DNA of 64,000 bases from Neocallimastix lanati (nom. inval.) (lineage: Eukaryota; Neocallimastigomycota; Neocallimastigomycetes; Neocallimastigales; Neocallimastigaceae), in the NCBI GenBank assembly GCA_016946835.1, contig JACVTC010000032.1, forward strand, positions 832,501 through 896,500, written 5' to 3'. A program made the translations under genes and the position numbers. Position 1 is the stretch's first letter, and each line of letters opens with the position of its first letter. Shown piece after piece: positions 18,742-58,253 of this stretch. The notes under the pieces were generated by a model that worked only from the letters and a program-made list of their open reading frames with translations, was not told the DNA's origin and ran no database searches.

Positions 18742-19039
18742 CCATATTCTGAAAATTTTTATTTATTTATTAATTTATTCATTTAATTATTTAATAATAA
18801 TATTTAATAATATTTCTTTTTATACTATTTTCTAATTATAAAGTTTGTTTATTATATGGAAATATAATAATTTACATTAATTTAAAATACTGTAAAAATT
18901 ATAATAAAATTCATGTTAATATATATGAATATGCTATATCATTTATTTATTATATAATTTATTTGTTGCTAAATTCAGTTTTTATATTAATTTCATATCA
19001 ATATCTTATTTATTTTATTTTATCATATTATATATTATT

Positions 19040-29492: not shown

Positions 29493-31492
29493 TTTTATAT
29501 AAAATAATAATATAAATAAAATATAAAAATAAAATATAAAAAGAAGAAAATTATTATTTTTCAATTAATCAATCGCAACCGGACTATATTGAATTAGATG
29601 AAATACATTCAACCAGAACAAATAATATAAATTCAAATAATCAAGATCCTTCTTCATCAAATGCAAAACCTTCACAAATATCAAAGGATTACAGTAAACA
29701 ATCAATCTCTATGGAATATAAACCAAATAGAGCAAGACCTATGTCTTTAGCGTCTAGAACTTCAAGGCTGAGCCGTGTAAGTACCTTAAGTAGAATATAC
29801 CAAAGTGAACAAGTTGGACGTGCTATATATGTTAATTTATCTGATAGACAATCAAGAAATTTTGATAATAAAAGGAAAAGGTCAAAGAGAAAGGGTGAAT
29901 TCATATCTAATATTGTTAGAACTGCTCGATACACTGTTGCTAATTTTCTTCCAAAGCAAATAGTAGCCCAATTTTCAAAATTAGCAAATGTTTATTTTTT
30001 ATTTGTTTCAGTTCTTCAAGTAATACCAGATCTTTCTCCAACTGGTAGATTTACTACTTTAGCTCCATTATGTCTTTTTGTTGCATTAGCAATGCTTCGA
30101 GAAGCATACGATGATTATTACCGTCATAAACAAGATAATAAGGAAAATAATTGTGATGCTAAAAAATTTATAAAATATTCAAATGGAAAATATGAATGGC
30201 AAACTATTCCATGGAAGGAAATTGGAGTTGGTGATATTATTTGTATTAGTAATAATGATCAAATTCCAGCCGATATTGTTGTATTGGCTTCTAGTAATGA
30301 AAAAGGTATTTGCTTTATAGAAACTGCTTCTTTAGATGGTGAAACTAATTTAAAGCAACGTCAAGCTTTAAAAGAAACCACAGATATAATTTACGATGAA
30401 AACTCTTTAAGTCATTTTAGTTGTAAAATTCAGTCAGAGTCACCACATGAAGATCTTTATAATTTTGATGGTTATATGGAAATATATGATGGTAGTGAGC
30501 AAGAACGTATTCCATTAACCATATCTCAACTTTTATTACGTGGTGCTACATTGAGAAATACAAATTTTATTTTTGCTGTTGTTATATTCACTGGTGAAGA
30601 AACACGTATTCGTTTAAATGCTAGTAAGGGTATTCGTACTAAAAGCCCAGCATTAGATAAATTCACTAATAAAATTGTTGTTTCTCTTTTCATTTCTGTT
30701 CTTTCCATAGGTTTAATAACTTTATTAATGTCTTTATATTGGAATAAAAGTCATAAACCAGGTCCAAATGCTCATTGGTATTTAAAACCGGAATTTAGTA
30801 AACCGGGTGCATTTAGACAATACTTAACTGATACAGTTCTTTTTAATACCCTTATTCCAATTTCATTATATGTAACACTTGAAATTACTAAATTAGTTCA
30901 AGTCTTTTTCATGAATAATGATTTAGCTATGTATGACGAAGAATCAGATACCCCATGTGAAGCAAGAACTTCTTCATTAAATGAAGATTTGGGTCAAGTA
31001 CGTTATGTATTTTCTGATAAAACTGGTACTCTTACTGAAAATCGTATGGTTTTTAAAAATATGAGTATTGGTGGAATCTCTTATCTTCATAATATTAATG
31101 ATACTAGTAAAAAAGATTCTAATTTACTATCATCAAAAGCTAAAAATAGTTCAAATGAATCACTTTCTAAAAAAACATATGATACGTATAATTATCACAA
31201 TAATTCTGAATCACCATTAACACTTTCTTCCTATAATGAAATAGAAAATTATGATACTAGTAAAAAAACTTCAAATATACAAGAATATTCAATAAAGACT
31301 CAAAAACTGATTTATGATTTAATGGAAAATAATGGTAATTGGACAGATAAACAAAATGAAGTTATCGATTTTTTAATTGGTATGGCATTATGTCATTCTG
31401 TAGTCCCTGAAAATCAAAATAGAAAAAAAGAAAATAGAAATAATGAAAGTGAAAAATCTTCACTAGCTAAAATTAACACCTATAACCCAGAA

Positions 31493-31556
<64 letters not shown>

Positions 31557-33715
31557 GTAATTCTGAAGATAATTTCCATATTACATATCAATCTTCATCA
31601 CCTGATGAAATGGCTTTAGTAACTGCGGCACGTCAAATGAAAATAGTTTTAACCGATAAATCTATGACAGATATTTCATTAAATATTTTTGGTCAACGTG
31701 TAGATACTCAATACAAGCTTTTAAATACCATAGAATTTACATCAGCTCGTAAAAGAATGTCTACAATTTATGAATATCCAGATGGAAGAATTATGATTCT
31801 TTGTAAAGGGGCTGATTCTGTTATTCTTGAAAGGTTAAAGAAGCGTGAAGAGATGAATGAAGAAGAAAGACGTATTCTTGATATTACAAATGATCATTTA
31901 ACTCAATATTCTGTTGAAGGTTTACGTACTCTTCTCTATGGAATTAGAGAAATTAGTTTAAAAGAATATGAAGAATGGCTAAATATTTGGAATGAAGCAT
32001 CTACAGCATTGACTGATCGTGGTGAAAGAATAGCAAAAGCTGCTGAAATTATTGAAACTGGATTTTCTTTATTAGGTGCTACCGCTATTGAAGATAAATT
32101 ACAAAAAGATGTTCCAAAAACTATTGAAAAATTAAGAGAAGCTGGTATTCATGTTTGGATGTTAACTGGTGATAAAAAGGAAACAGCTTTTAATATTGGT
32201 ATGACCTGTCGAATTATTAAGAATAATAGTATTATATTCAGAGTAGAAGGTAATAACATTACGGAAATTAGTCAAGTCATTAGTAAAGCTTTAATAGACA
32301 TTGAAAATATAAATATAAATAATAAAAAAAAGAGAAATCCTGATCATACTGTGGTTATTATTGATGGAGATTCTCTTTTAAAGATTGAAAGAGATGCTGA
32401 AACTCAAGCTAAATTAAGTGATATCAATAGTAAGGAATCGAATTCAAGAAAGAAAAAAATTGAAATTCGAAAAAAAATACCAAAAGGAAATTTATTGAAT
32501 TTCCTTGATTTAAGTTGTCGAGCGGATTCAGTTGTGTGTTGTCGTTTCTCGCCATCTCAAAAAGCTTTGATTGTTTCAAGTATTCGTAACATTTTAATGA
32601 AAAATCCTACCTTTGCCTCCGGTGATGAATATTCAAAAAATTCTTCTGCAGTTACATTAGCTATTGGTGATGGTGCTAATGATGTACCAATGATTCAAGC
32701 TGCCCATGTTGGTGTAGGTATTACTGGTCGTGAAGGTTTAGCTGCAGCTAGAGCCTCAGATTATTCTTTTGCACAGTTCCGATTTTTACAACCTTTACTT
32801 TTGGTACATGGACATTATGATTATATTCGTGTATGTCGTTTCCTTTTAGGTACATTCTATAAATGTACAGCATTTTATATTACTCAATTTCTTTTTCAAA
32901 TTTTTTGTGGTTGGAGTGGTACAAGTATGTATGAGCAATGGACTCTTTCATTATATAATGTAATATTCAGTTCAATTCCAGTATTAATTGTTGGTGTATT
33001 TGAAAAAGATGTTGAAAAGGAAACTCTTTTAACCAATCCAAAACTTTACCAATATGGACAACATAATTTAGCATTAACATGGAAAACTTTTTGGCGTTGG
33101 TTAATTCAAGGTCTTTGGCATTCTGTTTGTTGTGTCTTTATTCCTTTCATTACTTATAATGGCTTCAGTCCAAAAGCAACTACCGAATACTATGATGAAG
33201 TTGATGATAATGGAACAGTAACTTATTACAAGAAAGAAGGATTAGCATGGAATTTAAAGAAACTTTTTAATTCGGATGGTGCTATGAATGTACAAGATAA
33301 TTCATTATTCTTTTTAGGTACTATAGTATTCACATCTGCTGTTCTTATTGTCACCATAAAAATTTGTTATATTGAAAATCATAATCATACTATCTTTACA
33401 CATTTAGCAGCTTTCCTTTCAATATTCTTCTGGTTTGGTTGGAATTTTATTTACTATAGATTTGGACATATTATTAACTTCGGTGAAAATGTTCATTACT
33501 TATGGTATAATGTTTTTAGTTCACACGCTATGATAGTACAAGCATCATTAATTGTTGTAATTACAGTAGTTTGTACCATTGTTGTTTGTGATTATGCATT
33601 TGCTGTTTTATGGAGTTGGTTTGATTTAGATAAAAATCGTGGTAATGAAAGTCTAGATATTGAATTATGTCAACGTTGGGAAAAGAATATTAAAAAACAT
33701 CATCGCTATTACTAA
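29077..33715 (+). CDS. P4-type ATPase, phospholipid flippase
   Basis: Three exons, 29077-29164, 29335-29391 and 29544-33715, join in phase and give 1438 aa. The first intron starts GTAAGT. The acceptor of exon 3 could be three bases later. P4-ATPases pump phospholipids from the outer or lumenal to the cytosolic leaflet. Seen here: the actuator motif LDGETNLKQRQAL; the PISLYVTLEI membrane segment (P4-type replacement of the cation-site PEGLP); the phosphorylated Asp in FSDKTGTLTENRM (Asp codon 31016, about residue 540); nucleotide-domain KGADSVILERL; hinge GDGANDVPMIQAAHVGVGI; and a C-terminal multi-pass membrane domain. Overall it resembles the Dnf/Drs2 branch. Unusual: a 22-residue or longer poly-Asn run (31494-31557) in the P/N-domain insert. 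The N-terminus is Ser/Asn-rich and likely cytosolic. Partner (CDC50-like subunit) is not in the window. Confidence 0.95.
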
Positions 33716-34122
33716 TAATAATAATAATAATAATAATAATTTTATATTATTTATATATATATTCATATAATATACATGAAATATATCTATAAAACGTGAA
33801 AAAAAAAAGAATATTATTATTTTTGGGGAAAAAAAATATTTGCTATCATTATTATTATTATTTATATAATCATTATATTATTTTTCATTTATATTTATTT
33901 ATTATCTTTTTTTAAATTAGTTTTCTTTATTTATTTTATGTCTTAATTTTTAATTTTTATTATCATTAATATATATATATATATTGAAAAATAATAAAAA
34001 AATAAAAAAAAAAAAATTAAACATATATATACTAATTTATAGAAAATATAATTATAAAATTAAATAGCCATTTTTTATAAGAAAAAAAAATTAAAACAAA
34101 AAAATAAAATAAATATAATATA
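33716..34122. other. 3' flank of flippase gene
   Basis: A (TAA)n run directly follows the stop. The rest is AT-rich DNA that probably holds the 3' UTR. No gene is seen. Confidence 0.55.
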
Positions 34123-34123
34123 G

Positions 34124-34205
<82 letters not shown>
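34123..34205. repeat. 10-bp tandem repeat (AAATAAAAGA)n
   Basis: About eight perfect decamer units. The minus-strand frame across it is FISFISFIS and is an artefact. Confidence 0.95.
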
Positions 34206-34429
34206 TAAAATAAAATAAAGCAGAAATTTTAATAAAAGATAAAATATATAATATAATAATTGCATAATAAATATTAATATTTTTATAATAAAATCCACAT
34301 TAAAAAAAATCTTATATTAGCGAAATTTTATTCAAAAATAAAAATATTTTAATTAATTAAAAAATAAAATACAAATATTTAAATATTTATAAATGCATCA
34401 TAAGAAATTAAAGACAGGAATATATAAAA

Positions 34430-34845
34430 CTTTTTTTAAAGTAATTTTATTATAGTTAATATATCCTGAATAATTTTCAATTCCTTTAGCTCTTACAAAT
34501 TTTCCATTTGCAAAATATATTTTGTGCTCACACTTTTATACATCTTAGGTGATCCTTATTCTCAGTTATATGGTAGGTAGTTCCAGAATCTAATGTCCAT
34601 GCACTTAGATATTTATTTAGTTTGTTGTTTTGATTATAATTATTATTTTTATAATATTTTAAATTTTGAAATGGAACAATACTTCTAGTTACATTATTAG
34701 ATTCGATATTATAGGCTTCATTATAATCTTCATAGAAGTATTCCATGTGTTTATCTTTTTTTATTTTAATTTCGTTACTGAGACATTTTGTTTTGCCTCC
34801 CTTATCTAATATATCCTTAGTTCTGGTTATTTCTTTATCGAACAT
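34430..34845 (-). pseudogene. Copia Gag/protease remnant
   Basis: The minus-strand frame at 34528-34845 ends in AWTLDSGTTYHITENKDHL, the copia-type aspartic protease active site (D-S-G). The reading continues after a frameshift as FANGKFVRAKGIENYSGY at about 34440-34510. A PBS motif lies 66 bp upstream (34911-34923), so most of gag is missing and this is a truncated or internally deleted element. Confidence 0.75.
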
Positions 34846-34910
34846 TTCTATTTATTTATTTTAGATTATAAAAATTTTTAAATAAATTAATTTTTATTAT
34901 ATTTATTTAT

Positions 34911-34923
34911 GAGACTCTTAATC
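34911..34923 (-). promoter_or_regulatory. tRNA-Lys half PBS of minus-strand copia remnant
   Basis: GAGACTCTTAATC on the plus strand, the exact inverse of the PBS at 13795. It faces the protease remnant to its left, with LTR-like sequence to its right. Confidence 0.65.
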
Positions 34924-34951
34924 TAGTGTGTTGTATTTATGTAATTACAAT

Positions 34952-35410
34952 TTACTGTTGAAGAACATTTCCTATATTATTAAATTATTTTATATTACAT
35001 ACACATAATATTATACATACATTTATTACATAAAACATGCGATATTATATACGCCACTACTATATGTGTACTAGCTCATACATTAATTTTATACTACATA
35101 GGTTCTTATATTAAATACTATTTTAAAATTTTATATTAAAGTTTATTTTATATTTATTAATTTATATAATATTAAATATATTAAACATATTTCTATTCTA
35201 ACAGAAATAAATACAAGAATAAAATAAGTTAATATAAATATAATTAATGTATTAAATAATTATGGTGTATACATTTCATTCGTATTATATCATACGTACA
35301 AATATGAAAATCATATGAATATATAAAACAATTGTTAGAATATGTGAAATATAAGAAAAAAATGCCAATATGTAAAAATAAATATATGAAATAAGTGTAA
35401 TAATCTAACA
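34952..35410 (+). repeat. Putative LTR (TGTTGA...TCTAACA)
   Basis: The right end is firm: CTAACA directly precedes a PBS at 35411. The left end is a guess at TGTTGAAGAAC (34952), chosen because the putative 3' LTR at 36007 also starts TGTTGA. Head-to-head with the minus-strand remnant at 34911. Confidence 0.4.
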
Positions 35411-35422
35411 GATTAAGAGTCT
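35411..35422 (+). promoter_or_regulatory. tRNA-Lys half PBS of plus-strand copia remnant
   Basis: GATTAAGAGTCT follows CTAACA, as in the intact copia element. Confidence 0.65.
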
Positions 35423-35510
35423 TATTAATTCTGGATTATCAATAATTAAATAATAGTGGTTTAAATAAAAAATTTAGTATATTAATATTTATATTAGTGA
35501 AATAAACAAA

Positions 35511-35994
35511 ATGAATAGTAATGAATCAAACGCTCTTATAAATATATTAAATAATATAAACTATAGGGCATGAAAACAAGAACTACACTTGCTCCTAGAA
35601 GATAAGAGATTGGGGTAACATATTCTACAAGAAGTATTAAAAAAGGTACACAAGTCAGAAATTGATAATGAAGAAAATATAGAATCACAAATACTTGTAG
35701 ATGGAACTTCTAATGTGTATTATGCAAAAGGAATGAAAGAAAAGACTATTAAGGATGACGAGACAACTTAGGCATATCCTTAGAAGTATAGGTAAGTAAT
35801 TATCTATGAGTATAGACTTAATAACTTGCACAGAGTATGAAATGTTTAATATGATTACAAGTATTAATTTAAACATAGAGAAAGAAAGAGCTGAAAGTAT
35901 AAAAGAAACCTTAAAGAGAATTATATATGTCCACATATCAATATTCATTTCTAAAATGAATATAAAATTTAGAGAATTAAATGAACTTATGTAA
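35511..35994 (+). pseudogene. Copia Gag remnant, non-autonomous element
   Basis: From ATG 35511 the reading gives SNALINILNNINYRA, stop, KQELHLLLEDKRLG, stop, HILQEVLKK, a copia Gag N-terminus in which the first stop (TGA, 35572) replaces the usual Trp of the NYxxWK motif. The segment 35806-35994 (MSIDLITCTEYEMFNMI... FRELNELM) is the rest of Gag. A purine tract CGAGGAGGGAGG at 35995-36006 and TGTTGAGA follow immediately, so the element seems to consist only of PBS, gag and PPT with no pol. Confidence 0.6.
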
Positions 35995-36006
35995 CGAGGA
36001 GGGAGG
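35995..36006 (+). promoter_or_regulatory. Polypurine tract before putative 3' LTR
   Basis: CGAGGAGGGAGG immediately upstream of TGTTGAGACACAG. Compare the copia PPTs at 18447 and 63522. Confidence 0.5.
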
Positions 36007-36670
36007 TGTTGAGACACAGAAATGAAGAAACTCAATAGGTTTACGCTATTTATATAAATAATTTATTTTATTAGAAAGATTTCTTATTAATTATAAAATT
36101 TAAAATGATTATTAATATTAATCAACTAGTGTAAAATTTCGAATACATATATGTTAATTAAATATTAAATATTAAATTATTTATTTGTTATTAATTTATT
36201 TAATAAAAGCAAGAAGAAAAATATTTTCATTCGTGAAGTTTGAACTATTTATATTTTTAACGGAAAAACAGTTTTAAAATGTAAAATTAATTTTAAAGAC
36301 ATATTTAGAAATATGTTTGTAATAATTAATAATTAGAATATAGATTTTAATTGATGAAAATGAATCTTATTGAAAAAGAATAAAATAATTTATATAATAA
36401 GAATATCTAAATTCGTTTCAGTTAAATTACAAACCGAAAGAGTCTTTAACTTTCTATAATTTTATACAGAAAGAATATTAAAGAAGTTATTATTAATAAT
36501 TAATAAAATAATTATTTTTCAAAATGGGTTGAGGTGTGAGTCGAACCTATGAATCAATGGTCATGGTCAACTAATTATTGGACCATAATTCTAACTTTAC
36601 TAACTGAATATTTCGTTAAATGGTCCGCCTCCAGGATTCAGATGCCAAACGAATCTAACAGTTAGGCATA
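36007..36670. other. Putative LTR and unassigned AT-rich DNA
   Basis: A possible 3' LTR begins at 36007 but its end cannot be placed. Around 36530-36600 the minus strand carries tRNA-like boxes (TGGTCCAATAATT and AGGTTCGACTC), but no cloverleaf can be folded with confidence. Confidence 0.35.
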
Positions 36671-36679
36671 ACTTATATT

Positions 36680-36722
36680 AAAACTAAACTAAACTAAACT
36701 AAACTAAACTAAACTAAACTAA
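36680..36722. repeat. (AAACT)n pentanucleotide repeat
   Basis: Eight or nine AAACT units. Confidence 0.95.
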
Positions 36723-36759
36723 AATAAAAAATAATAATAACTAACTACTTTATAGTACG

Positions 36760-36797
<38 letters not shown>

Positions 36798-36989
36798 TAA
36801 AATTTCATGATATTAATAAAGTTACATGAATATAATATATAATAAGAATACATGAATATTAATTATATTTAATAATATAAAATAATATTTTGTAATATTG
36901 ATATTAATAAATTAATATAAGTTGGATATTAATAAAGTAAAGATTCATTTTCATGTTTTAATTTTAGTTATTTTTGTTAAATTCTTAAG
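36723..36989. other. AT-rich spacer
   Basis: T-run at about 36766-36791, then short ATATTAATAAA-type repeats. No gene. Confidence 0.5.
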
Positions 36990-37565
36990 AGTTTAGGGAA
37001 ATTTAAATTTAAGGATAACCTTTCCATTTAATAAAATATTGAGTTTTGCCAAAATGCTTTCATTTATCAAGAATTTTTTCAACTTCATATTCTTCTTCAT
37101 TATCAACGATTACCGGTGGCGGTTCTTTCTTTTTTCCAAAGTAATTTTTATAAAATGGTTCAAGTTCAGAAGCATGTATTACAGGATGGATTCTGATATT
37201 TTTTGGTAAATCTAACTTATATGAAACCGGAGAAATTTTCTTAATGATTATATAAGGATCATGTTTTTTGGATTAAATTTTTTGTTTCCATTATGAATTA
37301 TGAATTATAAGTGAACTATTGATCCATCCTTTATCACCAAGTTTAAAATTTGGACCTTCATTACGATATTTATTTTCTTGCTTGTTGTAAATTTTCATTA
37401 AGTGTTTTAAATAATTCTGAAAGATCTTTTGTAAATTCATCAGCTCGAGGAACGTAATGCTTGGAATTGATAGTGAATATCTTGGATTATATCCATAATT
37501 TGCATAAAAAGGTGAGTAGATCTTCTAAATCATTGATATCTTCTTCTTCAATTTCAATACATTGG
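36990..37565 (-). pseudogene. Ty3/gypsy integrase C-terminus with chromodomain (chromovirus fragment)
   Basis: The minus strand reads NKQENKYRNEGPNFKLGDKG, then YKIIKKISPVSYKLDLPKNI, RIHPVIHASELEPFYKNYFG, VIVDNEEEYEVEKILDK, stop, KHFGKTQYFIKWKGYP. The first parts are a gypsy integrase tail (GPFxIxKxIxxxxYxLxLP and HPVFHxSxL motifs). The end is a classic chromodomain (YEVEKIL...YFIKWKGYP), which targets chromoviruses to heterochromatin. Frameshifts and a stop at the position of a usual Arg make it a dead fragment. It belongs to a different lineage from the two gypsy copies described below, which show no chromodomain. Confidence 0.8.
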
Positions 37566-37699
37566 GGATAAAATTATAATATTAATAAGTAATTTTTCTA
37601 TAAAATAAATATTTTTTTTAAAAAACAATTTTTATATTTTTAACTAATTATTATTAATTGTTAAAAATATTAATTATTATTAAATTAGACTAATATTCA

Positions 37700-37866
37700 T
37701 GCATAGATTTCCGGGTTAAGTTTAACCTACATAGTAATTGGGCTAGTAGGCTCTGGACTGCTATTTTTTATATTGAAAATAGTAACCGTGACACACGCGT
37801 GGCATGACACCTTTCAAGAGGTAAGTTGCACGTCAGACAGTGTGTACTATCAGATTGCACGATTAT
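37700..37866 (+). promoter_or_regulatory. Conserved structured leader of gypsy copy 1
   Basis: A GC-richer block of about 165 bases upstream of gag, nearly matching the inverse of 58795-58950. Shared strings include ACATAGTAATTGGGCTAGT, CACACGCGTGGCATGACACC and CACGTCAGACAGTGTGTAC. Conservation in a non-coding leader suggests an RNA structure (packaging, dimerisation or translation), an inference. Confidence 0.7.
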
Positions 37867-38017
37867 TATAATTTAATAAGTGATTAATAATAATAAATAA
37901 TTAATAATTTTATTAGTTAAAAGAATTATTAGTTTTTTTTTAATTTTTTTATTTTTTTTTATAACAATTTATACGTTACGAGGTGTAGCATTCTAGAGAT
38001 ACAATAAATTTTATTTT

Positions 38018-38935
38018 ATGGGAACATCTAGTACTTCCAGTACTCCAATAGAGAGTACTCCACAAAGTAAGCTTAGCTATCGAAAATTAAAGAAAGAATT
38101 AAAAGATTTTGATAAGCTTACTAAACAAAACCTTGTCATCAATTCCTGGGTAAATGAGTTTAAGGCATGGATAAAATATCAACATATCAAGGATCCTGAA
38201 ACTATTTTTACTGCTTGTATATTAACGTCTTCTGGAAAACCTAGAGAGATTATCCAAGAATTAGAAGATGTAAATGACCTTACTGAAGATGGAGATTCTG
38301 ATTTCGAATGTGATAGTGAAGGAGAAGATGATGAAGAAAGTGAATCGACTAACACCTACTCAAGCCTTGATGAAATAATAAATCATCTGAAGACTTTATA
38401 TGGACTTAAAAAAGATCAAACCAGTTTGTTACGAAAATTGCGTTCCATGAGAATAAAGAAGAACGAGAAAGTTAAAGATTTTAATGTCCGTTATAGATCT
38501 TTATACCATAAATAGGATAAAAAGAGAAGAAGAAATATTAGTGTTTTAGATTATGCAGATTCCTTAACCAATAATCCTGACTCATGAAGAAAGGTTATGC
38601 TTAAAGACCATATTTCTATTACCAAAGCATTTGCTATAGCTGAAAAAGTTGATCGTTTATCTATTAAAAATAGTACTGAATATTATGATAAGACTCGTTA
38701 CAATCTTCTTAACTCTAAAAGTAATTTTAAGAAGAACATTTCAAATGATTTTAACAAACCAAAAACCTACAAAAAAGTATCTATAGAAAATCTCACTAAC
38801 AAGATGAAAGAAATGAATATTAGTACTTGCTGGTTTTGTAGCAATGAAGGGCATACTAAACGAAACTATCCTAAATTAAATTCTATATTGGAAAATAACC
38901 GCAAGAAGTTTTATGAAAATCATTTAAACCACTAA
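38018..38935 (+). pseudogene. Gypsy Gag, copy 1 (two stops)
   Basis: One frame from ATG 38018 to TAA 38935 with internal stops at 38514 (TAG) and 38584 (TGA). It aligns with the Gag of copy 2: LSYRKLKKELKDF, acidic SDFECDSEGEDDEES, YGLKKDQTSLLRKLRSMRIK, KVKDFNVRYRSLY, and a zinc knuckle CWFCSNEGHTKRNYP in which the last Cys has become Tyr (CX2CX4HX4Y). The TGA stop and the Cys-to-Tyr change are both G-to-A transitions relative to copy 2 (Trp and Cys). The C-terminus overlaps the slippery heptamer at 38923. Confidence 0.88.
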
Positions 38936-38975
38936 AAGGGAGTAGAAGCACTCCCATCGTCAAAAAAATTGCTTC
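38923..38975 (+). promoter_or_regulatory. -1 ribosomal frameshift signal: TTTAAAC plus H-type pseudoknot (copy 1)
   Basis: The gag frame reads CAT TTA AAC CAC TAA, so T TTA AAC (38923-38929) has the X XXY YYZ phase needed for -1 slipping. After an 8-nt spacer, GGGAGT (38938-38943) pairs with ACTCCC (38950-38955). The loop GAAGC (38945-38949) can pair with GCTTC (38971-38975), giving S1 of 6 bp, S2 of 5 bp and a 15-nt third loop. The -1 frame continues PLKGSRSTPIVKKIAS into pol. The same arrangement is kept in copy 2. Confidence 0.82.
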
Positions 38976-41900
38976 AGTCTGCCATCGTCCTATAACAGTT
39001 GACTTAAAAGAAGATGATGATTATGAAGAAACTGCTAATTTCCAAGAAGGTACTATTATGGATTATTATGAAGATTTTGATAATGAGTCGGATGGTTCCA
39101 AAGAATTGGATTACTTAGTAAACGTTATAAAGAGATAGGCAAATCGTAAAGATGAAGAGACTAGTGACCAAAGAGGAAAAAGGGTTCACAGTAGTCTAAG
39201 AGATGATCCTAAGCCAATAGTTACTCCAGGTTTACGAAAACAAAAAGAAATTCAATTAAGGGGAACATCGCGACCAGTCAAAAAGCCAACAACTCAATTA
39301 CATCCTTCAATTATAACTCAATCCAGAATAGAGAAAGAAAAGAGAATTGAGAAAGAGTTAAGAGATAAGGAAAGAGCTAGTACTAGTACTTCTGTGGAAA
39401 ATAATAAATATAGTAATGTTATTATTATTAATGAAGAAACTTCTCAGGAAGGGAATAATTCTAAACAAACTTTAAATAAATTAATTCAAGAAAAATCATC
39501 AGAAAAGTCAACTGAAATTAAGACAACTAGAATTCCAAGAAGAATACAAATGCAAACTGATTGTGATAGTTATGACGTGATAAAAGATTTAAACTCCAGT
39601 AATTGCAATATTACATTTGGACAATTATTGGACGTTGTTCCAAAGATATGGTGTCAAGTATCTCAAGGACTTAAATTAGAAAAGAATAATACTAAAATTT
39701 CAGGTGCAGTTGATAATATGTGTGCTACTACAATAATTACGAACAATATAGATCATACATATAAAAGTAAACATCATGAACCACAAGAAGATGATATTGC
39801 TATGGTTGATGTAATAGTAGATGGAGTTCGTGGTAAGGCTTTGATAGATTCATGTAGCAACTTAAGTATTATCACAAAACAATTTTAAGACAAATTACCT
39901 TATCAGTATGAGCCTATAGGAGTTAGTTGCAGGACTAATACGTTTAGCAAGGATGAATGATGATTACTCAGAAGATTTGTTAATCAAAGTTCCTATAAAA
40001 ATTAATGAATTATAACTACTTGTTACGTGTAGAATTATAGATAAGGAGGATCCATTATATGATATATTAATCAATCTCAAAACTCAAATTGATAACCAGT
40101 TATTTATACATCCAATTAGATATAATCTTTGTCGATTTAATGATCAAGGTTTAATTGATGAAATTACACCAATAAATAATGAATATGATGACGAAGAAAA
40201 ATTATTGTGTGTAATCAAGGCATTGAATCATCAAGAAGCTAAGCAACAATTGAAAACGATTGAAGGATTACCACCTATAAAATATATATATGATGCATTT
40301 TTTCAAAGTACAATTAATTCAAACTATAGAGAAGCTATTACTAAATTATTGAAGAACATATTGATATAATCGCAACTTTTCCTGAAGAATTAACTCCTTC
40401 AGATTTATCACCACACAATATTATTCTTAAGGAAGGAGTTAAACCTATTAAGTAAAAATTTTATCGACTTAGTAAATTAAAAACAGATATCTTATAAGAG
40501 GAATCAACTAAACTCTTATATAAACGATTAATTGAACCTTCATGGTCAGAATAGTCATCACCAGTAATGCTTGTGCCTAAAAAGAATGGTAAATGACGCC
40601 TTTGTGTTGGCAGTAGGAAAGTTAATGAAGCAACTAAGAAGGATTCTTACTCTTTACCAAACATTGAGGAAATTTTTGATAGTTTAGATGGAGCAAAAAT
40701 CTTCTCAACATTAGATCTTTATTCCGGCTATCATCAAATATTAATGGATTATGATAGTGTTGAAATCACTACCTTTGCAACTAAGTTCGGAAACTACCAA
40801 TTTAAGGTAATGCCTTTCGGTTTAACAGGTGCTCCAGCTACGTTTCAAAGAGAAATGAAACGTATATATACTATTCCCCTTAATAGGAATATGCGTCTAT
40901 AACTTTATCGATGATATTTTAATCTACTCAAGAACTGAAGAAGAACATCTGGAACATCTTAAAAAGTCTTATAAATATTCAAGGCACATAAGTTAAAAAT
41001 CAATATCGAAAAATGTTCTTTCATGCAAACTGAAGTAGAAGTACTGGGACATAAAGTATCCTTAGAAGGTTTAAGTCCATTGGAAAACAAAGTTAAAGCT
41101 ATTAAAGAATGGAAGGCTCCCTCTAACATTCATGAACTTCGATCATTTTTAGGAGCCATTGGATATTATAGAAATTTCATTAAGGACTTCGCAAAAGTTA
41201 CTGCTCCCCTCTGTTCTTTATTAAGAAAAGGTGTTAAGTTTGAATGGAAAAAGGAACAAGAAGAAAGTTTTAAAATTCTTAAAGAAAGATTAATCAATGC
41301 CCCAATATTAAGATTTCATAGATTCGATAGAGAATTTATTATAAGAACAGATGCTTCTTATGATGGTATAGGTGGTGTACTTCTACAAAAGGATGATGAA
41401 ACTGAAAAGTAACATCCGGTTCATTATATTAGTAGAACTTTATCTAAATCGGAAAAAAATTATGGAATTACGGATCTAGAAGGTGCTGCTCTAATTAAAT
41501 TAAAACCTTATATTATGGGAAATCCTAAGCAAACCATAGTATATGCAAACCATAAACCCTTAATCGGATTACTTAAAAATAAAGAAGCACAAAACTCTCG
41601 CCATACAAGATGGTGTTTGACTGTCAGTATGTTAGGAATTGATTTACGATATGAAGCTGGAAAGAATAATGATGTCGCAGACGCGTTATCAAGAATGAAA
41701 AATGAAAAAGAAAAAGTTGTCTTAGCAACACAAATTATCAAAAAACAAGATGAAAACCTACTTTCAAGAACCATTAAGGAATTTATTGAAGAAAAATTTA
41801 CGACAACTGATGGTGTGGACTACTTTGTTGATAGCAATAATTATAGAAAATTAGTTACAGATATAAAAGAAAAATTTCAATTAATTTTTCAAGCACACAA

Positions 41901-42855
41901 TAATAAGACACAAAGGCTATTACAAGACATACCAACGTTTGAAAAAGAGCTACTATTGGAACAATATGGTTAATGATATTAAGCGAATTATAGGTAAATG
42001 TGAAAAATGTCAATTAAATAAATCTCAACCATATCCTGAACCAACGGAAGATAAACCAACTGAAGTAGAAGGACCATTTACACACTTCGGATTGGATATT
42101 ATAGGACCTCTAAGTAAAACCAGAAATAATAATCAATATATAATCGTTGTGGTTGATTATTTTACTAAATGGGTTGAGGCAGAGCCCAAAATATAATTTC
42201 TCAGGATGTGATAAAATTTTTTAATTAATGTATTAACTCGATACGGTGTACCTCAAATTATCACTACTGATAATGGGGCACAATTTACATCAGATATGAC
42301 TTAAATCTTCCTTGATCTATATGATGTATATGTTAAATTTATCACTCTATATCATCCTGAAAACAATGGTTTAGTTGAGAATCGTAATAAAGAAATTGGA
42401 AAATTATTACGATTACTAGGACAACAGCACAAAGAATGGGATGAAATTTTACCATCTGCACTTTGGGCTTTAAGAACTACTAAAAACTCAATCACCAACC
42501 ATTCAAGCTTTGAATTAGTTTATGGAAGGGAGGACCAACAACCTTTTGACATTGCCGCCAGACCAACTAAGGGTATAAATATGTCTTCTGATGAAATTCT
42601 ACTGGAAAAATTTGTATCACACTATCAATGGGTAATGGAGGCCGCATCTAATATAAAAATACTTCAAAGTATTGAGCTACTTGGAGAGAAGAAAAGACCA
42701 GTATAAATAAAGCTAAAAGGATAAAACCAGGTGATTTAGTTCTAGTAAGAAACTTTAATAGAACTAAATTAGAGCCTTACTTTGTTGGACCTATGAAAGT
42801 AGTGAAGAAACAATTAAATACAGTCACTTTAGCCAAACCTGCTACTTATAACTAA
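38936..42855 (+). pseudogene. Gypsy Pol, copy 1 (protease, RT, RNase H, integrase; many stops)
   Basis: Pol begins in the -1 frame relative to gag. A long charged linker leads to the protease ALIDSCSNLSII (about 39838-39873). RT follows: SSPVMLVPKKNGK, stop, RLCV; FSTLDLYSGYHQILMD; FGLTGAPATFQREM; and FIDDILIYS near 40905. RNase H has FIIRTDASYDGIGGVLLQK and a VADALSRM end. Integrase has the zinc-binding CEKCQLNKSQPYPEP, HFGLDIIGPL, TTDNGAQFTSDM and ENRNKEIGKLL, and ends near VTLAKPATYN. Internal stops include TAG at 40549 and TGA at 40594, both at Trp codons kept in copy 2, and TAA at 40453, 40495, 41410 and 42305. Frameshifts occur near 40870, 40980 and 41900. The element cannot encode a working Pol. 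Confidence 0.88.
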
Positions 42856-43290
42856 ATATTATAATAAATATAATAACACTCAAAAACAAAATTTTTTTTT
42901 TTTATTATTTTTTATTTTAAATATTTTATTATTTATATTTATTATAATACTAAAAACCGCAAGGGTTGATATAGTATTATTATTAAAAAAGTTTTATTAA
43001 AAATTAAGTTTTATTAACTAAAAAATTAAAATAAAAAACACAAAGAAAAGAATATTGTTTAATAAGAATTTTACTCATATTTATTTTTTTCAAAAGTTAA
43101 AGTTATTAAAAAATAAAAATAAAAACTTCTAAAAGTTCTTAAAAATCGAAAAATTTAGAAAAAATAGAAAAAAATAGAATTAAGAATATACTAGATAAAT
43201 TTTTATTAATTAAACACAAGAATTATCAAGAAATTCTAGTAATTTCTTGAACTATAAAGAAACTTCTAGATCTTTTATAATTAAATTATA
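42856..43290. other. AT-rich DNA after gypsy copy 1
   Basis: No gene. It may include remains of the 3' end of gypsy copy 1. A stretch around 42955 (ACCGCAAGGGTTGATATAGT) is GC-richer but unassigned. Confidence 0.45.
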
Positions 43291-43293
43291 AAA

Positions 43294-43347
43294 TAATATT
43301 AAGTATGAATCGAACCCCAAGTAGTTTGATTCATACTTAATAATATT
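43294..43347. repeat. Long hairpin (inverted repeat)
   Basis: AATATTAAGTATGAATCGAA faces TTTGATTCATACTTAATAATATT across about ten bases (CCCCAAGTAG). Roughly 18-20 bp of nearly perfect stem, well above the background of this AT-rich DNA because the stem contains GTATGAATC. Confidence 0.8.
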
Positions 43348-43597
43348 AATTAATGCGATGATCGATATGGATAGAATATCGATCGAAAACTTATCTAGGT
43401 TTTTCTATCTAATATTTATTTAAAATGTCATTTATGTATCTACCTTGATGTAAAATGTAACCATTTAAAGTTTTGGTAAATTTATTCCAATTACAAATTC
43501 AACATCCCCAATATCCTTTATATTGAACTTCCTTTGTATAGATTGTTTTACTTTATTTATAAACACATGTTTATTCATTTTTTATATGTATCATGTA

Positions 43598-43760
43598 TCT
43601 AGTTTCAGCTTTATATATAGTTGACTTTAGTGTTTTATATTTTCAGCTTTAACATTAGTTGACTTTAGTATTTTATATTTTCATCTTTAACATTAGCTGA
43701 CATCAATATTTTATAACTTCAGCTTTATTTTTAAATGATATCAGTATTTGTATTTTCAGT
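43598..43760. repeat. 38-bp tandem repeat, about four diverged copies
   Basis: Units of the form TTTCAGCTTTAACATTAGTT plus GACTTTAGTATTTTATA, decaying rightward. Confidence 0.75.
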
Positions 43761-44223
43761 ATTTGTTTATGATACGTTTTTAATAATATTCATGCTTTGA
43801 TTTTTATAGATTATTACTTATTACAATAAATATAGGGAAAATCTATATTTACTACTAATAATATTTTATAAAAATTGTGTGTATGTGTAAAAGAGATAAT
43901 AATAATATATATGTGAATAGTTTAATATTTATCTCAAATAGAAAATATGTATATTATTTAATATTAATTAGATAAATTAATAAATTAGTATATTGAAACA
44001 TTATTATATTTAATAAATTTAGTAGTTATTAAATGATAAATAAAATACTTAACTTTGTATTATTAGTATAGTTATATATATATTTATTAAATATGTGATA
44101 GATATTTTTCTTGTTATTGAGTATGATTAGCATAAATATGTCAAATGTTTTGTTTAGTTAGAATAAAATTATATTATTAAGTAATTAATATTTATAATGG
44201 TTTACTTAACTTCTTGAGTCGAT
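43761..44223. other. AT-rich intergenic DNA
   Basis: No gene or repeat recognised. Confidence 0.5.
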
Positions 44224-44236
44224 GAGACTCTTAATC
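44224..44236 (-). promoter_or_regulatory. tRNA-Lys half PBS (minus strand)
   Basis: GAGACTCTTAATC directly left of an LTR start TGTTAAAATAC. Inverse of the PBS at 13795. No gag follows on its internal side, so only LTR plus PBS remain. Confidence 0.7.
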
Positions 44237-44693
44237 TGTTAAAATACTTAATACTATTTATTAAAAAATAATAAAGAAGGATTTTTTATAAAACCCTTTT
44301 TTTAGGTAATATTATTATTATAATACATAAGTACATAATATTTATAATACATAAAACTTTAATGTACAATGTAATTTAAACTTAATCTTATACTTTGACA
44401 AAAATATTAGTTAATTATTAATATATATATATAAAAAAAATTTAATCATATTAGTAATAATTTTTTTATTTCTTCTAAAAATTTTATTATATTTATTCAG
44501 AATAAATTATTAATAAATATATTATATATTTTAATTATTACTATCAATTGAAAAAAAAATTGTATTAGTAATTTTTTTTTCATTATTCCACTAATAAGAT
44601 TTAAATTTATTAGTAATGACTTTCTAATATTTTCAAAAAGATCTTATCATATTTATTCAAATTATACTAATCACATCTTTACAATATGCGATT
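44237..44693 (-). repeat. Copia LTR, minus orientation, nearly solo
   Basis: 457 bp with TG...CA ends (TGTTAAAATACTT ... ATCACATCTTTACA) and PBS at its left. Its right end shares ATCACATCTTTACA with the solo LTR at 61873-62578. Confidence 0.65.
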
Positions 44694-45286
44694 ATCCCAA
44701 TCACATTTTAAATTAAAAATTTTTCTTGTGTAATTCAAAATGTAAATTATTCTTTAATTTATAAATTAATAAATAAAATAAATAAATCATATGAACTAAA
44801 TTTTTGAATTATATTCTTTAAGCCACAAGACAAATTTTTAATGTAACAATTTGGGTGTGTCATTTCGAAAATTTTTATTACATAAATTTGTATTTTGTTG
44901 TGGTGCATTTCGGAAAACATGGCGTATTATAATGTAGTAAATAAATAAATGAATAAATAAATTATAAATGAACAAATAAATTTTTATATGATAATAAAAA
45001 TAATTAAGACAAACGTTTATTATGACTAAAAATTTTTTTTTTTAGAAAATTAAATAAAAAAAAATATATATATATATATAATTACTACATATATAAAATA
45101 ATTATTATATTTTTTTTATTTGATTTTAAATATTATTAATTATTATTAATACCTTGTTTATATTATCAACAGAATTACATACGTAATTACATAATTGAAT
45201 AATTAAAAAAAAATTAAAAATATAAATAGATTTATAATTAGTATTTTTTATAATATTATATTAAAGTATTAATTTTATAAATTAAA

Positions 45287-45736
45287 GTGTTTAAAAAATT
45301 ATTAACAGCTTTATTAATTGCTACTGCATGCATTACTTATGTTTGTGGTATAAAATTGGTTGGACCAGCTATATATTAAGATATATCTCATCTATATTTC
45401 CTTAATTCTAGAGATTGCAAAAATACATATATATGTAAAGGTTATAGTATTATAAAAAATAGTAATCGTGGATTTTATGACTGTTTCCTCCGTAATTCAG
45501 TAGTTAATTATAGAGAAATCCCTGTTGGAGCATATCTTAGAGATACACAATATAAAAATCGAGATAAATGTAAATGGATTACTAGACATATAAGTACCAA
45601 AAATGAATGTTATTACACACCAAATAACACAAGAGGTGGATTTTCATGGAGAAGTTATGTTAATCGTGATGCTCGTGTTTATGATATAGTTGGTAAATAC
45701 TGTCTTACTGAATATGGTTGGTGTTGGCGTGGTTAA
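45287..45736 (+). pseudogene. Captured gene for a secreted Cys-rich protein
   Basis: A 150-codon reading with a single in-frame stop (TAA 45377-45379) and GTG where an ATG is expected. The first residues FKKLLTALLIATACITYVCG form a good signal peptide. The mature part has about eight Cys (SRDCKN, TYICKGY, YDCFLRN, DKCKW, NECYY, GKYCL, GWCW) and ends YGWCWRG. I do not recognise the family; a small secreted Cys-rich protein is as far as the sequence goes. It lies wholly inside the MULE ends, so it was carried there from elsewhere. Two point changes would explain its loss. Base composition is clearly less AT-rich than its surroundings. Confidence 0.75.
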
Positions 45737-46339
45737 ATAAATAAAAAATAGTTTTTTTATAGATTAATTTTAAATTTATTATTAAAAAAATATTATTTTT
45801 TTAAAAATTAAGATAATATATAAGCCATATAAATATATATAAGTTTAACATATATAAAAATATTAAATAATAAAGTATATAGGTGAAATAAATATAAAAT
45901 AAAATAAAATAAAATAAAAATATAATAATTATTTTATATATATAGGAATCTTATATATTTTAATTTTTTTTCATTTATTTTTCTAAAAAAAATTTTTTAG
46001 TTATAATAACGTTTGTCTTTTAATTATTATATTTTATTAAAGTAAATAAAAAAATTTAAATGAAAAGTAAATAATTTTAATTATTTATTCATATTTTCAT
46101 AAACCATATATATATATATATTAATTTAAATAATATAAGAATTAAAAATTAAAACAATAAGAGTTGAATAATTGATCCTATTAAAATAATTAATTATTTG
46201 CATAGTAATATTTATAATGTTTGATCAATATGAATCAATTATTATTAAAATATAATAATAACAATTAGAATTTTAATAAAATAATAAAAATCTTTTATTG
46301 AATTTAATATTTTTAATAACATAATTAATTTTGAGAAGT

Positions 46340-46556
46340 ATATGGATATTAATAAAATTTATAATTATATAATATTGATATTGATATTAATAAAATTTAT
46401 AATTATATAATATTGATATTGATATTAATAAAATTTATAATTATATAATATTGATATTGATATTAATAAAATTTTTAATTATATAATATTGATATTGATA
46501 TTAATAAAATTTATAATATAATTATATAATATTGATATTGATATTAATAAAATTTT
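46340..46556. repeat. Tandem repeat of about 43 bp, five copies
   Basis: The unit ATATTAATAAAATTTATAAT plus TATATAATATTGATATTG repeats inside the Pack-MULE. Confidence 0.85.
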
Positions 46557-46689
46557 AACTAGTATCAAATAAATCGGTTTTAGTTATAAATTACTTATTA
46601 AAAATAACTAAAGATAATTTCTATTAAGATTATTAAATAAACACAATAGGTAAATAAATTTGTATTTTTCTAGCATTTTTTTAAATTAA

Positions 46690-46960
46690 TGTATTACTCT
46701 TAAATTTATTTGCATTTTTTTTTATTTCTTTAAATAATGTTTCATATGTAGATTGTTTTTTTATTTTTTAATATAGAAATGGAAGTAGTGTAAAACATAT
46801 TAAATTCCCCAACATAAGTTCTTGTTATAAATAACCGATAACTAAATTTCGGTGCTGCATAAAATGTACCGTCCGCAAATATATTTTTATGATAATTCGA
46901 AAATATATATGCTTGGAATGGTGATTGAAAGATTATTAGATCAGTATTTTTAAATATCAT
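46690..46960 (-). pseudogene. MULE transposase fragment
   Basis: The minus strand reads MIFKNTDLIIFQSPFQAYIF, NIFADGTFYAAPKFSYRLFITRTYV and YTTSISILKNKK, parallel to residues 163-229 of the intact transposase, including the first catalytic Asp. Only this scrap remains, so the element depends on an autonomous relative. Confidence 0.88.
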
Positions 46961-48019
46961 TATTTCTTATTTTTTTTTATTTTTTAAGCATTAAAAAATA
47001 AAATATTTATTTATTTTTATTTTATTTTTCAATGTTTAAAAAAAAAGTTTTCTTATTTCTTATTTTTATTTTATTTTTTAATGTTAAATAGAAATATCTA
47101 ACCTAATTATTATTTATTGAAGTGTTGTATTTCGCCAGAAGTTGAATTTTGTCCAGTTGAATTTCGCCAAATACTTAGTGGCTTATAAATTTATGTCATA
47201 AAATATCACCACAATTATTATTCACGCCATACTGTGAATATATGGCTTTTTTAAAATCGTAGAAAAAAGCCACAAATTTATGATACAATTAGATATACAC
47301 CCACATAAGATTACGTGTTTGAAAATTTTTGGAAATTGTAATTTTATTTATTTAATTAATTAATTATTATTCATTAAAATTTTAAAAAAATTAAGTGGCT
47401 TAAAACTCAAAATATTTAAGCCATACAACAAAATACAAATTTTTGTAATAAAAATTTTCGAAATGCACACTCCCCTAACAATTTTCGTAGAAAATTAATT
47501 CTGAAAAAATTATTGTTTTACAATGATTTAAATGAATTGATTAAAGTTTAAAACAAAATAAATTAATAATTAATTTTGTGAAAATTAAGTTTCAAAATTT
47601 AATCATGACTCTTTTAAAATTGTTTTTAAATTGAAAATAAATAAAGATTTTACCTATAATATTAAAATAATAAATAGATAATAAATGTACTTAATTTTAA
47701 TTACTTAGTATTTAGTTTAATTAATAATTATATTTTTCTAAATTTAGCTATAGTTTATAAATTTATTATTTTATAAAATTCATTAGGATAGTTTTATATT
47801 TAAATATATGTAATTTAAATAAAATAATATATTATCAATGTATTTAGGAAAAGTATAAATAGAAGATACTTTTCACATTTTTTTTCGATGTAATTGTTAA
47901 TTGTTATTAACTATTAATAAATATATAATATTAAGAAAAAATATTTTAAATAAAATATTTTTAATAAAATATATTCTTATTGTGTTGTTATTGTAATCTA
48001 TTTTGGTGTTTCTTTACAC

Positions 48020-56493: not shown

Positions 56494-57350
56494 TTAATTA
56501 CTTTTACTTATGTAGCTATGATCATAGTTATTTACTAATAAAGTTCGTGCTATTACATTGTCTACAGTTCCAATTATTTTAGATTTTTCTAACTTTAAAC
56601 CTTGAGTTAATTGTGAACGAATTTTCGGACATGCATTCAAGAGTTGACCTATCGTAATACTGGATTTAAGATTATTTAAATCATCCATTATATTGTAAGG
56701 TTCTTTATTATTCATCATTTTGATATTCCTCTTTACTAACTGAGTATTTCCATTATTAGTTTCTTTAGTTTTTGTTGAAATTAATTTTTCCAAAGTATTA
56801 GTTTTATTTTGTTGATTATCTTTATTCATTTCTAGATCTTCTATTTCATTATCGATTACAAGTATATCTTCAGATTCAACTTTTTCCTTTCCTTTTGATG
56901 AATAATTGTTGTTTTCTTCTTTACTTTCTCTTACTCTTGTTATATTTCTTAATTCTTTTTCTTTTTGTTTTTCTTTGTTAATATTTGGTTTAGTTAAAAT
57001 TGAAGGAAATATTTGATTTTTATAAACTTTATTTGGTTTATTATGTAGCTCATTTTCTTTCTTCTTTCTTAAAGCAGGAGTTGCGAAAGGACGTGGATTA
57101 TCTTTTAAACTTTTATGTACTTTCTTGGAATTATTTTCTTCTTTTTCGCTGTTATTATCATTCATTTTTCTTTTTATAGCATTTATATTGATATCATCCT
57201 CACTTTCAGTTGTGTCACTAAAATCAGATTCTTCAGATTCTTAATTAAAGGAATTATTATCAATTGGAGTATTCTTGGTAAAAGTATTATTTTGTAAATT
57301 ATTTAATGAAGCTATTTTTTTGTCATTGGGAGTGCTTCTGCTCCCATTTA
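56494..57350 (-). CDS. Gypsy Pol N-terminal linker (copy 2), entered by -1 frameshift
   Basis: From the slippery site the -1 frame reads LLNGSRSTPNDKKIASLNN, is interrupted by a TAA at 57241-57243, then continues from about 57165 as a 223-codon Lys/Glu/Asn-rich stretch (PRFATPALRKKKENELHNK; ITIGQLLNACPKIRSQLTQG; GTVDNVIARTLLVNNYDHSY) and stops at 56494. It matches the linker of copy 1 (PKPIVTPGLRKQKEI; FGQLLDVVPKIWCQVSQGLK), so it is a conserved Pol segment before the protease. No catalytic motif. The stops are probably decay. Confidence 0.8.
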
Positions 57351-57360
57351 GAAGTTTAAA
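57308..57360 (-). promoter_or_regulatory. -1 ribosomal frameshift signal: TTTAAAC plus H-type pseudoknot (copy 2)
   Basis: On the minus strand gag reads TCT TTA AAC TTC TAA, placing T TTA AAC (57360-57354) in slipping phase. After an 8-nt spacer, GGGAGC (57345-57340) pairs with ACTCCC (57333-57328, last pair C-A), and the loop GAAGC (57338-57334) can pair with GCTTC (57312-57308). Slipping gives LLNGSRSTPNDKKIAS, the pol frame. The spacer and the coding flanks differ from copy 1, while the heptamer and stems are kept. Confidence 0.82.
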
Positions 57361-58253
57361 GACTTTTTGGAATATATTTCTTTTTTATTTTTTTCCATAA
57401 TCTTATTTAATTGAGGGCAATAGTATGAGTAATGACCTTCTTCCTTACAGAAGAAGCAAGTTTTAACAGATAAATTTCTCATTTTCTGGGTTGATTCTTC
57501 TATAATATCTTGAGGTTTCGGTTTATTATTTGTTTGACTTGTTTGGAAATTTTCGTTTCTTCTTTTAGGATAAAGTCTTGAAGTAGTACTGTTTTGATTA
57601 TTTTGATTATGTTGGGAATTATTAATATTATAGGTATTATTGTTCCTTACAGAAAGTCTATCTACTTTCTCGGCAATTTTGAAAGCTTTATCCATACTTA
57701 TATCATCTTTAAGGGATAATTTCTTCCAGGCTTCATAATTATTTTGAATAGAATCAATATAATCTAGTACACCAATGCGCTTTCTTCTCTTTTTATCAAG
57801 TTTAGTGTACAAAGTTCTATATCTTACATTAAAGTCTTTAATCTTTTCGTTTCTTTTAATTCGCATTGCATGAAGTTCTTTAAGAAGTAAATTTTGGTCT
57901 TCTTTAATACCGTAAAAATTTTCAAGACTTGAAATAATTTTTCCAAGAGAAGGAAATTTAATATCATCATCAACATTTTCTTCTTCATCATCTTCTTCTT
58001 CTTCATCTGATGAATCATCACTTTCATCATCACTATCTTCTCCCAAATCTTCAATAACACGTTGTACTTCACCAGAGCTGCTAAGTAAACAAGCATTAAA
58101 TATTGTTTCTGGATCTGTAATACCTTGTATCTTGATCCAAAGTTTTAATTCAGTAGCCCAGGACTTAATATCTAAATTGTCCTTGCTAAGTTTCACAATA
58201 TCTCTTAATTCTTTTTTCAATTCTTTAAAGCTCAAAGTTGTTTCCTTGGACAT
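57348..58253 (-). CDS. Gypsy Gag (copy 2)
   Basis: Intact. I start at ATG 58253 (MSKETTLSFKELKKELRDI) because copy 1 begins at the equivalent place; an in-frame ATG 22 codons upstream would add a hydrophobic leader unlike Gag. About 301 aa: an N-terminal capsid-like part (WATELKLWIKIQGITDPETI), an acidic stretch SDDESDDSSDEEEEDDEEEN, then KIKDFNVRYRTLYTKLDKKR, and a CCHC zinc knuckle CFFCKEEGHYSYYCPQ near the C-terminus for RNA packaging. It ends KSLNF, stop, directly over the frameshift heptamer. Confidence 0.93.
   Translation of the reverse strand: MSKETTLSFKELKKELRDIVKLSKDNLDIKSWATELKLWIKIQGITDPETIFNACLLSSSGEVQRVIEDLGEDSDDESDDSSDEEEEDDEEENVDDDIKFPSLGKIISSLENFYGIKEDQNLLLKELHAMRIKRNEKIKDFNVRYRTLYTKLDKKRRKRIGVLDYIDSIQNNYEAWKKLSLKDDISMDKAFKIAEKVDRLSVRNNNTYNINNSQHNQNNQNSTTSRLYPKRRNENFQTSQTNNKPKPQDIIEESTQKMRNLSVKTCFFCKEEGHYSYYCPQLNKIMEKNKKEIYSKKSLNF

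Follow-up and report, generated by a model that had tools for sequence, protein, structure and literature searches.

Background

Signals for -1 ribosomal frameshifting in retroviruses and coronaviruses combine a slippery heptamer of the form X_XXY_YYZ (UUUAAAC in coronaviruses) with an H-type pseudoknot, compact examples of which are those of MMTV and SRV-1, and the spacer in -1 frameshift signals measures about 5-9 nt. The gag-pol junction analysed here resembles the retroviral and coronaviral signals in its heptamer class, in its 8-nt spacer and in a predicted compact two-stem knot with a short loop 1 and an A-rich loop 3. It differs from them in host and element, and also in that stem 1 is nearly constant whereas stem 2 is exchanged between families and one clade is without stem 2.

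The mammalian genes PEG10 and PNMA3 (Ma3), which derive from Ty3/gypsy elements, are described in the accessible part of the source as shifting by -1 at a classical heptamer, with a pseudoknot as stimulator in PEG10 (PMC5009743). As far as that text goes, the fungal junction shares with them the Ty3/gypsy ancestry, a putative -1 shift at a classical heptamer and a predicted pseudoknot stimulator, but PEG10 and PNMA3 are domesticated single genes, whereas the junction recurs in a multi-copy fungal retroelement lineage with open gag and pol. A 2003 survey of LTR retrotransposons, as presented in the same accessible text, recorded a -1 gag-pol offset in 28 of 51 animal elements and a mixture of +1 and -1 in fungi (PMC5009743). 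The surveyed elements are similar in having pol in -1 and, in many cases, classical heptamers; they differ in that the accessible part of the source reports no covarying stem 2 for them (PMC5009743), and the lineage here is from the Neocallimastigomycota. Yeast Ty3 is described there as shifting +1 at GCG_AGU_U without a knot (PMC5009743), so that its likeness lies in the Ty3/gypsy pol (a weak match to PDB Ty3 7q5b, E 2.9e-5) and its difference in the +1 shift and the missing knot. In Candida Tca2, according to the portion of the paper available, a UGA stop in the same frame is followed by a potential 3' pseudoknot, and readthrough was not shown (PMC2194720); Tca2 thus resembles the present case as a gag-pol junction of a fungus at which a 3' pseudoknot could form, and differs from it in having no heptamer frameshift.

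As documented in the accessible part of PMC5009743, this type of mechanism and its use in Ty3/gypsy-type elements are already known. A reading of the junction from sequence alone (the sequence-only reading) had stated that no description was known; this stands for anaerobic fungi, for which our literature search, outside which lay most subscription papers, including that of Navaratna et al. 2024 on their LTR retrotransposons, found no frameshift description, but it does not stand for the mechanism, which is known from animal and partly from fungal Ty3/gypsy-type elements and from the PEG10 knot (PMC5009743, accessible part).

Results and Discussion

The gag-pol junction in the window copy

The window is the whole 64,000-nucleotide stretch of Neocallimastix lanati DNA that was analysed, with a GC content of 12-27% in 4-kb blocks. 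The features of the junction and of the element that surrounds it are as follows.

38018..38935, + strand: gag remnant of a decayed element, ATG at 38018, terminal TAA at 38933-38935
38828..38869, + strand: zinc knuckle CWFCSNEGHTKRNY, by which the gag frame is set; its final Cys is replaced by Tyr
38914..38916, + strand: pol-frame (-1) TGA that bounds the shift interval on its upstream side
38917..39135, + strand: pol start in the -1 frame, open to TAG 39136-39138, open again 39139-39888
38923..38929, + strand: slippery heptamer T_TTA_AAC
38930..38937, + strand: 8-nt spacer CACTAAAA containing the gag stop TAA 38933-38935
38938..38943, + strand: stem 1, 5' arm GGGAGT (core GGGAG 38938-38942)
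38944..38944, + strand: loop 1, A
38945..38949, + strand: stem 2, 5' arm GAAGC (lengthened to GAAGCA, ending at 38950, should the last pair of stem 1 open)
38950..38955, + strand: stem 1, 3' arm ACTCCC (core CTCCC 38951-38955)
38956..38970, + strand: loop 3, 15 nt, A-rich
38971..38975, + strand: stem 2, 3' arm GCTTC
40975..41973, + strand: pol remnant, end of reverse transcriptase plus RNase H (Pfam RT_RNaseH on 41413-41973; in-frame stop 41410-41412)

The gag frame, set by the zinc knuckle from its TGC at 38828, reads CAT TTA AAC CAC TAA at the heptamer; the last cysteine codon of the knuckle, mutated in this copy, is TGT in other copies. The sequence-only reading had placed T TTA AAC in gag phase, the gag stop within the spacer, pol in -1 relative to gag, and a GGGAGT/ACTCCC stem whose loop GAAGC is complementary to GCTTC, and each of these elements proved correct, the stems base for base. 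Stem 2 of this copy is extendable to GAAGCA/TGCTTC (38945-38950/38970-38975). Because TGA 38914-38916 closes the pol frame, a useful -1 shift is limited to about 38917-38935, and the heptamer falls inside this interval.

The window copy itself is a pseudogene, a dead relic of a Ty3/gypsy element: its gag is interrupted by in-frame stops at 38513-38515 and 38585-38587, and its pol frame is broken at 39136-39138 and after 39888. No LTR-type repeat pair of 60 nt or more was found at 33000-48000 around it.

Frames and proteins in close copies

The genome searched comprised 199 Mb in 762 contigs. With a DNA query of 321 bases around the junction, the best 40 of 691 first-look candidates were scored, and the 39 scored matches besides the window itself were 96% identical. 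Thirty loci, the window copy included, were taken from these matches. In all 30 the heptamer is TTTAAAC, the gag stop lies 10 nt downstream of the first heptamer base, pol is in -1, and a stop closes the pol frame just upstream of the heptamer. A 303-codon gag is open in 24, pol is open to the end of the locus in 21, and both are open in 19. Since all 30 close copies share the -1 offset, it is the native state of the element.

In an open copy on contig C753 the pol frame is continuous from the heptamer through reverse transcriptase (RT), RNase H and integrase. The domains of L101, RVT_1 7-167, RNase H 230-360, H2C2 439-493 and rve 517-605, lie in the same frame by their coordinates. The element order of RT, RNase H and integrase is the Ty3/gypsy order. 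Pfam gave no aspartic protease match in two class A copies (classes are defined below by their stem 2), a match above the cut-off in class E copy L157 and matches below it in L158 and L159.

Some copies are regularly spaced, about 7,017-7,018 bases apart on C16 (616921/623938) and C30 (536832/543850), and about 7,097-7,098 bases apart on C223 (261630/268728) and C391 (3025/10122/17220), all in the genome searched (G000). This spacing suggests head-to-tail element arrays, perhaps with shared LTRs.

The heptamer across families

Through gag protein matches, 70 further junction loci were collected (L031-L060 plus L061-L100). TTTAAAY is kept in 67 of them, and in 65 it lies in the gag frame downstream of the zinc knuckle; in the other two (L069 and L082) the frame upstream is shifted, which in L082 (G000:C610) puts gag and pol into one frame. 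The heptamer was lost by substitution in L047, an insertion in the heptamer of L067 (G000:C584) fuses gag and pol into one frame, and in L081 the junction is lost. Together with the 30 loci found by DNA similarity, 97 of 100 junctions keep the heptamer.

For comparison between families 44 representatives were chosen, 35 found with a heptamer-containing pattern and nine through gag; in these chosen sequences eight different amino acids are specified by the codon preceding TTA, which nevertheless always ends in T. A pattern in which the heptamer was open except for C or G exclusions gave 2,207 rows, about two per locus owing to the palindromic stem, and one row in the control; the 100 matches listed correspond to 52 distinct loci, with TTTAAAY in 49, TTTAAAA in two and an unrelated sequence in one. 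Elsewhere in the gag frame, TTTAAAY does not occur in phase at any of 915 codon positions in three family copies (L004, L031, L040), and the other in-frame heptamers in these frames are two TTTAAAA and one TTTAAAG, all in L040.

Stem 1

A pattern search that fixed stem 2 and put no constraint on stem 1 gave 819 genome matches and none in the reversed control. Among the 100 matches listed, 97 have GGGA(G/T) with CTCCC, and the three exceptions (C24:1104474, C35:243932, C38:1205) look like decay. The core of stem 1 across families is 5 bp, to which the window family and a few others add a sixth, T-A pair. The core lies at the same offset as in the window, after 8 nt, in the 44 representatives, with mismatches in L085. 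In this family (16 loci, the end of gag being intact) pair 5 is a T.C mismatch, which leaves 4 bp, and the single copies L057 and L063 also have stem 1 mismatches.

When a 5' G and a 3' C were barred at pair 3, 168 matches were obtained, with one in the control. The 100 matches listed comprised 75 of this lineage, 24 of another repeat (L154 type) and one unrelated sequence (L153). In all 75 lineage matches listed, pair 3 is A opposite T (GGAAG/CTTCC, with one CTTTC), and the copies belong to class B' (peptide KGSSQSS) and class E (GRR.TS). At the codon level, the change from GGG to GGA keeps glycine, and the accompanying change from CCC to TCC turns proline into serine. The 44 representatives divide into 30 with GGG/CCC and 14 with GGA/TCC, with none mixed, a split that is partly built in because the patterns left out the mixed GGG/TCC and GGA/CCC states. 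Sequence comparison indicates that stem 1 is a conserved pairing with compensatory change, from G-C to A-T at pair 3.

The hairpin alone is mildly special in energy (-9.7 kcal/mol, z -2.0, with 11 of 200 shuffles as good). At the junction no Rfam family scored above its gathering score; four weak matches were all far below.

The separate repeat met in the pair 3 search (L154 and 23 further matches) has the form TTTAAATAAAA(A/T)T(G/A)AGAAAGACACGGATCTTCC, often occurs twice per contig, 26-60 kb apart, and is unrelated to the junction.

Stem 2 and its covariation

A pattern with stem 2 left free gave 1,259 genome matches and one in the control; of the 100 matches listed, seven lie outside the lineage as judged by eye. 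The searches that found the families put no constraint on the downstream strand. The following stem 2 sequences, 5' and 3' arms, were distinguished.

Class A: GAAGC/GCTTC, often 6 bp as GAAGCA/TGCTTC or GAAGCT/AGCTTC
Class B: GCAAT/ATTGC, 6-7 bp in L109, L122 and L124
Class B': TCAAT/ATTGA
Class C: TGTACT/AGTACA
Class C2: AGTG/CACT
Class D: GAACGTT/AACGTTC

In most classes the 5' arm of stem 2 abuts stem 1, as is expected of stacked stems. Shuffling of the downstream strand gave p values of 0.0055 (L001), 0.009 (L104), 0.08 (L137), 0.009 (L114), 0.10 (L105) and 0.0035 (L116), so that two of the six classes (L137 and L105), taken singly, fail to beat the shuffles at 0.05. When strands were exchanged among six chosen class representatives, the true pairing reached a summed helix length of 33 against a mean of 21.7, and it was the only one of 720 permutations to reach the observed sum. 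The covariation across family copies that the sequence-only reading had proposed to look for is therefore present in this genome, stem 2 occurring in six sequences, each of which fits its own downstream strand best. Single-copy variants (L111, L125, L045 and L079) are still able to pair through G-U. The comparison of classes A to D thus indicates that the loop pairs with the downstream strand, with compensatory change.

The window contains a second complete module of class A, in an element of the L072 type.

57308..57360, - strand: second complete module, TTTAAAC 57360-57354, GGGAG 57345-57341, GAAGC 57338-57334, CTCCC 57332-57328, GCTTC 57312-57308
57348..58253, - strand: gag frame of the second copy, open throughout and closing with KSLNF*; pol pieces from 57240 to 53351

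In this element a stop at 57243, 117 nt beyond the heptamer, closes the pol frame.

A clade without detectable stem 2

Class E (15 representatives: L102, L107, L110, L112, L113, L118, L142-L149 and L151) keeps the heptamer and stem 1. In the near window none of the 15 has a stem 2 beyond chance, and up to 110 nt downstream none was detected in 14 of the 15 (p 0.11 to 1.00). The class was placed outside the H-type pseudoknot heading, as the loop pairing test came out negative. The sequence-only reading had expected copies with intact gag and pol to carry the heptamer and both stems; for class E this holds for the heptamer and stem 1 but not for stem 2. In 14 of the 15 representatives AGG is used as the second arginine codon, which gives the loop GG; the codon is thus retained against codon usage, AGG making up 10 of 141 arginine codons in class A copies. 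In most class E sequences CC is seen about 10 nt after stem 1.

A class E element (L396) was also found on SVBD01000026.1, a contig of a MAG labelled Erysipelotrichaceae. It has an open gag of 422 codons and a pol of 1,376 codons in -1, and in RT it shares 57% identity with L157. The contig is probably fungal DNA in a bacterial bin, that is, from a contaminated GTDB genome.

Open class E copies without stem 2, among them this one from an independent assembly, are what would be expected if the stem 1 hairpin alone stimulated the -1 frameshift and the complementarity of the loop were incidental or minor. For the lineage as a whole this explanation is unlikely, because six stem 2 sequences each match their own partner (one permutation in 720) and single copies carry variants that remain compatible with pairing through G-U.

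It seems rather likely that the junction is one module with a constant core of slippery site and stem 1 and with an exchangeable stem 2, replaced whole at least five times with both strands, and that one clade has either no stem 2 or another contact, possibly through the loop GG. If true, the families would form a natural series that shows how much stem 2 contributes to frameshifting.

Constraint on the protein or the DNA

The same stretch encodes a conserved peptide (KGSRSTP, KGSSQSS or GRR.T(P/S)), and it might be kept as protein or DNA, for example as a Gag-Pol cleavage site, with pol expressed by re-initiation or from a separate mRNA. We consider this very improbable. Glycine is encoded by GGG at the junction and by none of the 92 glycine codons outside it in three family copies (proline CCC is used in 15 of 133 codons outside it). 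Random synonymous coding almost never yields the stems: with the pol peptide of L004, any such 5-bp stem arose in 0.40% of 20,000 draws, and stem 1 plus stem 2 together in 0.01%. Stem 2 moreover changes together with its partner, and in the close copies there is no room for a separate pol start upstream of the heptamer in the pol frame.

Proposed mechanism

From the observed sequence, frames, conservation and covariation we infer ribosomal slipping, its rate and the fold in the cell. A -1 frameshift at the gag-pol junction is nearly certain. For the window's family, within the Ty3/gypsy-type lineage, a programmed -1 frameshift with an H-type pseudoknot as stimulator is highly probable, and the reading proposed from sequence alone is upheld: the window has the heptamer, the spacer, pol in -1 and the two stems, and many families of the genome repeat this combination.

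A ribosome reading gag would stall on the pseudoknot, formed by stem 1 (GGGAG/CTCCC) and by stem 2 between the stem 1 loop and a strand 9-15 nt further on, with its P- and A-site tRNAs on U_UUA_AAY. By tandem slippage both tRNAs would then move back by one base from UUA AAY and pair with UUU AAA, the gag stop would be bypassed, and pol would be translated as a Gag-Pol fusion. In most of the copies seen, Gag made without a slip would terminate in Leu-Asn, followed by no more than one further residue. Stimulation would come from the knot in classes A to D and from the hairpin or another contact in class E.

Two other explanations have next to no standing. The frame offset in the window copy could be a decay indel, with gag and pol in one frame in the living element, as the several stops and frame breaks of this copy and the two natural copies with gag and pol in one frame (L067, L082) would allow; this was rejected because the same -1 offset is found with open frames in all 30 close copies and in other families. 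Stop-codon readthrough or a +1 shift past the gag stop, which have fungal precedents in the +1 shift of Ty elements (PMC5009743, accessible part) and in the stop plus pseudoknot of Candida Tca2 (PMC2194720, accessible part), was rejected on the frames, as readthrough stays in the gag frame yet pol is in -1.

Depth of the lineage and other collections

RT identity to the window family is 63% over 403 aa for class C, 56% over 487 aa for class E and 47% over 545 aa for class B'. For class B, a single copy (L159) gave protease-type and weak RNase H matches only; the stretch retrieved for class D held no pol worth testing.

A protein search identified Gag relatives from Orpinomyces, Piromyces and Anaeromyces, which by themselves make an anaerobic gut fungus (Neocallimastigomycota) the most likely host. 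If gag ends at TTA AAY, a Gag C-terminus of LN or LNx is expected, and 43 of 45 public knuckle-bearing Gags end in this way, 29 of 31 in the first search and 14 of 14 in the class E search, the latter set including the query itself and the whole perhaps including Gags from the window species. Examples are the Gags of Anaeromyces robustus (P0059, LNQ) and Orpinomyces (P0050, LN); the two exceptions are among the 31 class-A-like knuckle proteins.

The phage collection gave no match. Among viral contigs, the full class A pattern had no matches, and of 18 stretches that matched a pattern in the search by protein none was confirmed. A tblastn search of plasmids returned five distant, irrelevant records. 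The pattern without stem 2 gave at least 120 matches in viral contigs and at least 118 in genome contigs; of these 238 listed loci, a knuckle lies in the gag frame of one (L396), and a further twelve, recognised by nothing more than a loose RT motif, appear to be chance matches.

Other features of the window

By eye, the open frames at 13817-17698, 17608-18330 and 61361-63511 (+ strand) are like Ty1/copia-type polyproteins, and a 1,391-codon frame at 29540-33715 (+ strand) resembles a P-type ATPase of the phospholipid-flippase kind, with a DKTGT motif. At 19009-20952 lies a long array of TTTTA type, in which higher-order repeats measure about 47, 94 and 141 bases.

Conclusion

If confirmed, these junctions would provide a large comparative set for -1 frameshift pseudoknots, with more than 1,000 pattern matches in one genome, spanning several clades whose RT identity to the window family is about 47-63% and offering natural compensatory changes in both stems as well as a hairpin-only sister clade. 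Confirmation would also suggest that Ty3/gypsy elements of an early-branching fungal phylum use the retrovirus-like -1 route and not the +1 route of yeast Ty3, and the junction would mark Gag-Pol expression in anaerobic fungi at the level of translation.
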